A DNA stretch of 44,548 nt from Cyanobacterium sp. T60_A2020_053. GTDB taxonomy: Bacteria > Cyanobacteriota > Cyanobacteriia > Cyanobacteriales > Cyanobacteriaceae. Position 1 is the first letter of the stretch; each line of letters opens with the position of its first letter. The DNA lies in contig JACYMF010000062.1 in NCBI GenBank assembly GCA_015272165.1, positions 1-44,548 of the forward strand, written 5' to 3'. The notes beneath the pieces are model-generated. The model was not told where the DNA came from. It ran no database searches and saw only the letters and a list, made by a program, of their open reading frames with translations. A program made the position numbers and the translations under genes. Of the stretch, positions 771 through 38,291 are shown piece after piece.

Positions 771-778
771 ATATTTAT
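771..778 (+). repeat. left 8-bp target-site duplication of the MITE
   Basis: ATATTTAT directly precedes the left terminal inverted repeat at 779 and is repeated exactly at 952-959 directly after the right terminal repeat. Confidence 0.85.
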
Positions 779-951
779 GGCTCTTCTACAGTAGTTATGA
801 AAAATTAATAATAAATAACGAATAAAACCTTTGATATATAATAGTTTTAGTATTTTAAAAATGCAATTGTTATAAATTTATGGTTTGCATTTCACCTAAT
901 ACCTGACACCTTTTTTTAGACATAATTTATCATACTCAAAGTAGAAGAGCC
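779..951. mobile_element. 173-bp MITE with ISL3-like ends
   Basis: A non-coding element bounded by perfect 11-bp inverted repeats, GGCTCTTCTAC (779-789) and GTAGAAGAGCC (941-951), and flanked by identical 8-bp direct repeats ATATTTAT. Ends beginning GGCTCTTC with an 8-bp duplication match what is known of the ISL3 transposase family; the family name is an inference. The interior has no open reading frame and carries a degenerate CCTGACACC repeat (about 880-912) also found elsewhere in the window. It lies between the first toxin gene and the next antitoxin gene, and its duplication includes the first two bases of that antitoxin's ATG. Confidence 0.8.
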
Positions 952-959
952 ATATTTAT
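952..959 (+). repeat. right 8-bp target-site duplication of the MITE
   Basis: An exact copy of 771-778 (ATATTTAT). Together with G960 it forms the ATG of the downstream Phd/YefM antitoxin. Confidence 0.85.
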
Positions 960-1200
960 GAGTATTAAAACAGTTAAACAAATAGAAGGTAACGTTAATC
1001 AATTAATTGAAGAAGTTGCCCAATCTCATCAACCAATTACTATTATGGGTGAAAAATATAGTGCAGTTTTAGTTTCTCAAGAAGATTGGAGTGCAATCCA
1101 AGAAACATTATATTTATTATCAATTCCAAAAATGAGAAAATCAATTATAGAAGGATTAGCAACTCCTATTGAAGAATGTGACGAGGAATTAGACTGGTGA
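958..1200 (+). CDS. Phd/YefM family antitoxin, now without a toxin partner
   Basis: An 80-residue protein with the Phd/YefM N-terminal DNA-binding fold: opening strand and helix (residues 1-20), then PITIMGEKYSAVLVSQEDW (26-44), the classic strand-turn-strand of this family. The acidic C-terminus EECDEELDW normally neutralises a YoeB/RelE-type RNase. In this family the toxin follows with a short overlap. Here a GTG overlaps the stop but its frame closes after ten codons (1197-1229), so the antitoxin appears orphaned. Its start codon is made from the MITE duplication. Before insertion the gene would have lain about 16 bases after the ParE-like toxin stop, suggesting a former four-gene run. Confidence 0.85.
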   Translation: MSIKTVKQIEGNVNQLIEEVAQSHQPITIMGEKYSAVLVSQEDWSAIQETLYLLSIPKMRKSIIEGLATPIEECDEELDW

Positions 1201-1229
1201 AATGGAAAATATACTTCTCCAACAATTAG
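1197..1229 (+). pseudogene. 5' remnant of a YoeB/RelE-type toxin gene
   Basis: A GTG inside the antitoxin stop region opens a short frame reading VKWKIYFSNN and then TAG. The pattern x-W-K-I-x-(Y/F) resembles the opening of cyanobacterial YoeB/RelE toxins, and the overlap is the one expected for that toxin gene. Nothing toxin-like follows up to 1400. The identification rests on about eight residues plus position and is therefore tentative. Confidence 0.4.
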
Positions 1230-18509: not shown

Positions 18510-18523
18510 GACTTTCCCGAAAG

Positions 18524-18540
18524 ACAGGCAAGATGTCTGT
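18524..18540. repeat. short palindromic repeat, copy 2
   Basis: ACAGGCAAGATGTCTGT followed by TTCACC. It is the same family as 1247-1263 and 38208-38224, with two changed bases. It sits 12 bases after the TPR gene's stop (minus strand). Confidence 0.65.
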
Positions 18541-18551
18541 TTCACCAAAGT

Positions 18552-38164: not shown

Positions 38165-38207
38165 AAAAATCAAAGTTAAAGTAGGATTTTTTTACCTTTC
38201 GAGAAAT

Positions 38208-38224
38208 ACAGGCAAAATGCCTGT
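38208..38224. repeat. short palindromic repeat, copy 3
   Basis: ACAGGCAAAATGCCTGT, a perfect 7-bp stem, preceded by GAGAAAT and followed by TTCACC. It is the cleanest copy of the family found at 1247 and 18524. Confidence 0.75.
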
Positions 38225-38291
38225 TTCACCATGTAAAAAATAGCGTTAAAATAGATAGTATTCTGATATGATAAACCCTAATAATTGTCAA

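Follow-up and report, generated by a model that had tools for sequence, protein, structure and literature searches.

In Microcystis aeruginosa PCC 7806, a 187-bp MITE has been described that has the ends GGCTCTTCG, is accompanied by 8-nt repeats, and is inferred to be mobilised by an ISL3 element; according to the sections of the source that deal with this MITE, it is mainly intergenic and often located between toxin-antitoxin systems and transposable elements (PMC11448079). Another cyanobacterial MITE is Nezha (Zhou et al. 2008), referenced in a paper that, along with a second one, covers in the relevant parts the roles of MITEs and the distribution of ISL3 elements (PMC10969869, PMC9208149). 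Outside this phylum, a minisatellite-containing MITE is described, in outline, for Porphyromonas gingivalis (PMC4596501). A search of the open-licence literature found no paper on the particular MITE family that is the subject of this work.

Here we report the analysis of a 173-bp element at positions 779-951 of a 44,548-base stretch of cyanobacterial DNA, hereafter the window (positions refer to its whole length). Judging from sequence comparisons, the element is almost certainly a young MITE copy with ends derived from an insertion sequence of the ISL3 family, because it combines matching ends with 8-bp duplications, ends of the same kind enclose an ISL3 transposase remnant in a related genus, and the assembly to which the window belongs yielded no ISL3 transposase.

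The element, read on the plus strand, was confirmed on both letters and coordinates, in agreement with the perfect 11-bp inverted ends and identical 8-bp flanks that had been claimed for it. The left terminal inverted repeat, GGCTCTTCTAC, occupies positions 779-789 (plus strand), and its exact reverse complement forms the right terminal inverted repeat at 941-951 (minus strand), without a mismatch over 11 bases. Outside these ends stands the 8-bp duplication of the target site, ATATTTAT, at 771-778 and, identically, at 952-959. Exact 11-bp inverted ends spaced 60-400 bp apart and flanked by an exact 8-bp repeat occur at one place in the window; the same pattern was found 0 times in total in 100 first-order Markov windows, and once in total with 8-bp ends. 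No ORF of at least 40 amino acids is contained in 779-951, and the segment, non-autonomous and without a reading frame of its own, shows the short length, terminal inverted repeats and lack of a transposase gene by which MITEs are recognised.

The element lies between the stop codon TAA (761-763) of a ParE-like toxin gene and the ATG (958-960) of a Phd-like antitoxin gene, ending six bases ahead of the latter. The right-hand copy of the duplication (952-959) overlaps the start codon at 958, to which it contributes the A and the T with its final two bases, as the original prediction had stated. The duplication puts back the six bases that precede the ATG as well as its AT, so the antitoxin reading frame is intact. 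Today 194 bases separate the ParE stop codon from the Phd ATG, as against 13 in the inferred empty site; the earlier figure of about 16 bases holds if the three bases of the stop codon are included, but not as a distance after it.

A search with the 173-base query against 40 genomes returned at least 146 matches in 12 genomes; at most 20 initial candidates were scored for each genome, which makes these counts lower bounds, and one copy may give two matches. The genome that carries the window contributes at least 22 matches at no fewer than 20 places, and the remaining matches fall mostly in two other genera (g4 and g5) of its own family, none of the four same-genus relatives having more than a single short partial match among the matches listed. 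None of the 20 copies in the window's own genome lies within a reading frame of at least 50 amino acids. For five left-half copies in this genome (L033, L034, L038, L039 and L040), no recognisable right end was present in the fetched stretch. When 243 genomes of the order were searched (three candidates scored per genome), matches at E ≤ 1e-8 were obtained in at least 11, of which seven belong to the same family. The other four match the left 50-103 bases only. In genomes of other families, the matches at G232:C277, G232:C111, G094:C1 and G188:C246 are confined to the left 98-103 bases of the MITE, at 73-77% identity. Since genomes of other families match the left part only, the left half of the MITE may be older or wider-moving than the whole element. 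Viral contigs searched with the 22-base end pattern gave 0 matches, and a search of plasmids gave no match.

For the analysis of insertion sites, the copies were gathered together with their flanks and their ends were set mechanically. Among 37 distinct de-duplicated elements with both ends, the 8-bp flanks are identical in 20 and agree at 7 or 8 of 8 positions in 26, whereas random re-pairing of left and right flanks in 5000 shuffles gave on average 0.65 and 1.7 such elements and never more than 5 and 7. In the remaining 11 copies the flanks agree at 3-5 of 8 positions, which is attributable to decay or to mis-set ends without being proven to have either cause. The target sites of the family are AT-rich. 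The scatter of the copies over unrelated sites, their inverted ends and the recurrence of 8-bp target-site duplications support the identification of the element as a MITE. Copies at unrelated sites without duplications had been named beforehand as evidence to the contrary, and this test fails to refute the identification because 26 of the 37 copies keep 7-8 of the 8 flanking bases.

The original prediction had also assigned the element to the ISL3 type by its ends and 8-bp duplication. This parentage is now supported by tests in which the ends were compared with an ISL3 remnant in genome G012, with a complete ISL3 element (L133) and with the ends of ISL3 loci from the order, and the assignment is sustained by the remnant, which has near-identical ends and a duplication. 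In G012, a member of genus g5, the remnant is 823 bp long (L078:1089-1911), is flanked by ATAATTAA and ATAATTAA, and carries fragments of Zn_ribbon_ISL3 and DDE_Tnp_ISL3, the middle of the transposase being missing. Its ends match the MITE at 22 of 22 bases on the MITE's left and 20 of 22 on its right, and in a longer comparison 26 of the left 27 bases and 32 of the right 39 bases are identical; these outer 27-39 bases alone clearly resemble the insertion sequence, and the MITE interior is without clear resemblance. The complete ISL3 element, found in the more distant genome G055 (L133:1463-2881, 1419 bp), has the flank AGAACTAT twice and a 407-aa ORF that scores 303.9 bits against the ISL3 transposase model NF033550 (cut-off 180); its ends agree with the MITE ends at 19 of 22 and 17 of 22 bases. 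The ends of the other ISL3 elements found are alike to the MITE at 11 to 20 of 22 bases, the more distant being the less alike, and in genomes G008 and G011 the 3' end of the transposase gene adjoins one MITE-type end. The GGCTCTT-type ends and 8-bp target duplication expected of an ISL3-derived element are both present in the window copy. When 30 ISL3 loci from the order were inspected for both GGCTCTT-type ends (at most one mismatch) and 8-bp flanks (at least 7 of 8 bases alike; those listed had 8), 15 loci, the G012 remnant among them, showed them, and some of the 15 that did not extend into contig ends.

A full-length ISL3 element with the same ends, which had been proposed as a check, was not found in the assembly to which the window belongs, where no ISL3 transposase was detected by the DDE_Tnp_ISL3 profile or by protein search; an internally deleted ISL3 element with near-identical ends is present in G012. 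Across the family, the DDE_Tnp_ISL3 profile gave partial matches only, in 4 of 15 genomes, and no intact autonomous ISL3 element with ends identical to the MITE was found among the ISL3 elements compared. Because the assembly consists of 118 contigs, a repeated transposase copy could be absent from it.

Inside the element, alignments of the copies delineate a heptamer array of two CCTRAYA units at 895-910 (plus strand). The heptamer is present genome-wide, the double heptamer having 213 matches in the same genome versus 0 for a reversed-pattern control. The MITE copies contain between 0 and 4 exact CCTRAYA units, and this variation largely explains their differences in length. At least 16 of the 146 family matches stop near base 133, and at least 10 run from about base 115 to the right end, both break positions coinciding with the array; at least one such broken match belongs to L019, a complete element whose array is longer. 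Many copies appear to be half-elements broken at the CCTRAYA array, which suggests recombination at the heptamers. Heptamers of another kind were also seen: in a distant relative (L160), the toxin reading frame just after the Phd stop enters GGGCAAA-type heptamers, and in the MITE copy L037 similar heptamers replace the left half.

The genes on the two sides of the insertion belong to different toxin-antitoxin modules. Upstream, a ParE/RelE-superfamily toxin of 101 amino acids is encoded at 458-763 on the plus strand (PF05016, E 2.7e-16, 60.3 bits versus a cut-off of 23; TIGR02385, 23.7, below the cut-off of 27.9). The antitoxin of this module, 85 amino acids long and encoded at 201-458 on the plus strand, is RelN-like (NF050107, E 7.7e-5, 23.2 bits versus a cut-off of 70) and has no Pfam match. 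Downstream, positions 958-1200 of the plus strand encode a Phd/YefM-type antitoxin of 80 amino acids (PF02604, E 1.8e-12, 47.3 bits versus a cut-off of 29.8), whose start methionine is at the same place in the three nearest relatives (L063, L064 and L065). Overlapping the Phd stop with its GTG start is the remnant of a YoeB-type toxin gene (1197-1229, plus strand), in which about 8 codons are alike and a stop follows (VKWKIYFSNN and stop, versus VKYKIVYTKQAKKDAKK and the like in relatives); an intact YoeB toxin directly downstream of the window Phd is accordingly lacking. The toxin of the relative L063 (G001) is Txe/YoeB (TIGR02116, E 5.9e-27), and similarity to YoeB was detected within 15 bases downstream of Phd at 20 of the best 31 loci, with three partial cases (L064, L168 and L186, the last at a contig end). 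By this comparison the usual partner of Phd is a YoeB-type toxin, and since that gene is here reduced to an 8-codon remnant, the window Phd is an orphan. The toxin beside Phd also looks broken or missing in the relatives L064, L160, L163 and L174. Following the toxin remnant, at 1232-1274, is a dispersed repeat of about 43 bases with ACAGGCATTTTGCCTGT, parts of which recur at 18513-18546 and 38197-38239 with 85-88% identity. A different repeat of about 80 bases, at L023:1588-1668, has many copies in the same genome and in relatives.

The proposal that the insertion split a former run of two toxin-antitoxin units is not upheld by these loci. No Phd is found beside the RelN/ParE pair in two close relatives (L021 and L022; about 80% alike), and tblastn detected neither a Phd near 11 more distant ParE loci (L051-L061) nor a ParE upstream of Phd in the best 31 other Phd loci. 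Among the relatives examined, the ParE and Phd modules adjoin only in the window. It is possible that the two units adjoined just before the insertion, 13 bases apart, with any common operon being putative.

The age of the insertion was approached through eight aligned close copies, seven from the same genome (the window copy among them) and one from G011. Private substitutions number 0 in the window copy and 2-8 in the others, and the window copy differs from its three nearest copies in this set at 5-6 positions. Because it has no private substitutions and its duplication is intact, the copy appears young, which supports the claimed recent insertion. The accompanying suggestion of an empty site at this locus in relatives did not materialise: none was found among the relatives examined, either by way of the two modules together or at the MHYT gene nearby in genomes of the same genus (read in 2 of 8 relatives with the gene), and the two flanks of the nearest other copy match separate places in relatives. 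As the two-module arrangement was seen nowhere else among the relatives examined, the pre-insertion state is deduced from the duplication alone.

Two alternatives bear on the origin of the element. Its mobiliser might belong to another family that duplicates 8 bp, the likeness of the ends to ISL3 being due to chance, and such a view would be in keeping with an assembly in which no ISL3 transposase was found, with the failure to find an intact ISL3 element with identical ends, and with the half of the 30 ISL3 loci that do not show both ends together with duplications by our criteria (some of them at contig ends). However, G012 has ISL3 transposase remnants enclosed by both such ends, with a duplication, G008 and G011 have them next to a single such end, and the other half of the loci carry GGCTCTT-type ends with 8-bp flanks, so this alternative is already close to refuted and we give it next to no credence. 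It is also extremely improbable that the insertion is ancient, conserved at its site and kept by selection. The still intact Phd frame would agree with such a history, but the zero private substitutions and intact duplication argue against it, as do the modules never found together in the relatives examined and the MHYT gene of two same-genus relatives, which adjoins a gene that we take to be rpoC1, without toxin-antitoxin genes.

A regulatory role was considered as well, in which the element would be a cassette of the antitoxin that splits a two-module toxin-antitoxin operon, insulates Phd from transcription of the ParE module, and drives or folds its own leader RNA. Its position six bases before the ATG invites this idea, and the similar Microcystis MITE, in the part of the source that treats its location, is likewise often placed between toxin-antitoxin systems and transposable elements (PMC11448079). 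As RNA, the single sequence has a predicted fold of -37.9 kcal/mol (z -4.8 versus shuffles), as expected of long inverted ends; however, an alignment of 26 copies yielded 0 consensus pairs, and no Rfam family matched in 600-1400 up to E 1, so that the strong single fold is treated as a by-product of the inverted ends and a regulatory RNA is rejected. This alignment, from which the eight-copy set was also drawn, comprises 26 of the 36 elements shorter than 205 bp, ten having been left out for poorer ends or, in a few cases, as near-duplicates. Further against a cassette, no terminator-like site was found in 700-1300, promoter-like sites are near the shuffle level (five versus 3.3 ± 2.0), and no ParE-Phd pair was seen in the relatives examined; taken together, a regulatory cassette is unlikely. 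The original prediction that the insertion severed the antitoxin from transcription arriving from upstream is likewise not supported, with no terminator-like site in 700-1300. Within the element, just one promoter-like site points rightward, and it is a weak one (9 of 12); neither a promoter nor a terminator in the element stands clearly above shuffles. The right end also puts AGAAGAG before the ATG, which fits the usual Shine-Dalgarno motif poorly; as the three relatives have no consistent one, this candidate was dismissed. A more elaborate scenario would be that the MITE made a leftover Phd separately controlled, providing a new leader after the decay of YoeB, with Phd kept as an anti-addiction or regulatory protein beside the unrelated upstream ParE and the heptamer array tuning leader length; we consider this very unlikely.

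Under the preferred reading of a young MITE copy with ISL3-derived ends, an ISL3 transposase acting in trans would have bound to the GGCTCTTCTAC... ends and placed the element in an AT-rich 8-mer of the intergenic stretch that separates the end of the ParE-like gene from the start of the Phd-like gene. Repair of the staggered target cuts would then have left ATATTTAT on both sides. The Phd frame would have stayed intact, with changes confined to sequence further upstream than -6. Because Phd probably survives from a Phd-YoeB pair with a decayed toxin, the insertion was probably close to neutral, in a permissive AT-rich gap beside an already orphaned gene, if the orphaning is assumed to precede the insertion.

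These results document a multi-copy, ISL3-type MITE family in a cyanobacterial group, together with a remnant of its probable parent insertion sequence and an 8-bp signature. They also illustrate how an element can land next to a start codon and yet leave the gene formally intact, which is of use in annotation and in dating insertions. The event itself is of an ordinary kind, and existing knowledge of MITEs and toxin-antitoxin systems is unchanged.

In comparison with known systems, the window MITE is like the Microcystis element, as the latter is outlined in its source, in being cyanobacterial, of similar length, with inverted ends starting GGCTCTTC and 8-nt duplications. The two differ in that the Microcystis ends are imperfect over 9 bases (GGCTCTTCG), whereas those of the window copy (GGCTCTTCTAC) are perfect over 11, a comparison made on the ends and without the Microcystis interior; the variable heptamer array is, relative to the published outline of that MITE, a feature of the family described here. 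With the ISL3 family the window MITE shares GGCTCTT-type ends (cf. GGCTCTTCTACAGTAGTTATGA) and 8-bp duplications, but ISL3 elements have a transposase, which the window element does not, and the likeness is limited to its outer 27 and 39 bases. Nezha, likened by its description only, is similarly a cyanobacterial MITE family, and the P. gingivalis MITE, from a different organism and also likened by description only, resembles the window element in containing an internal tandem repeat (PMC4596501).
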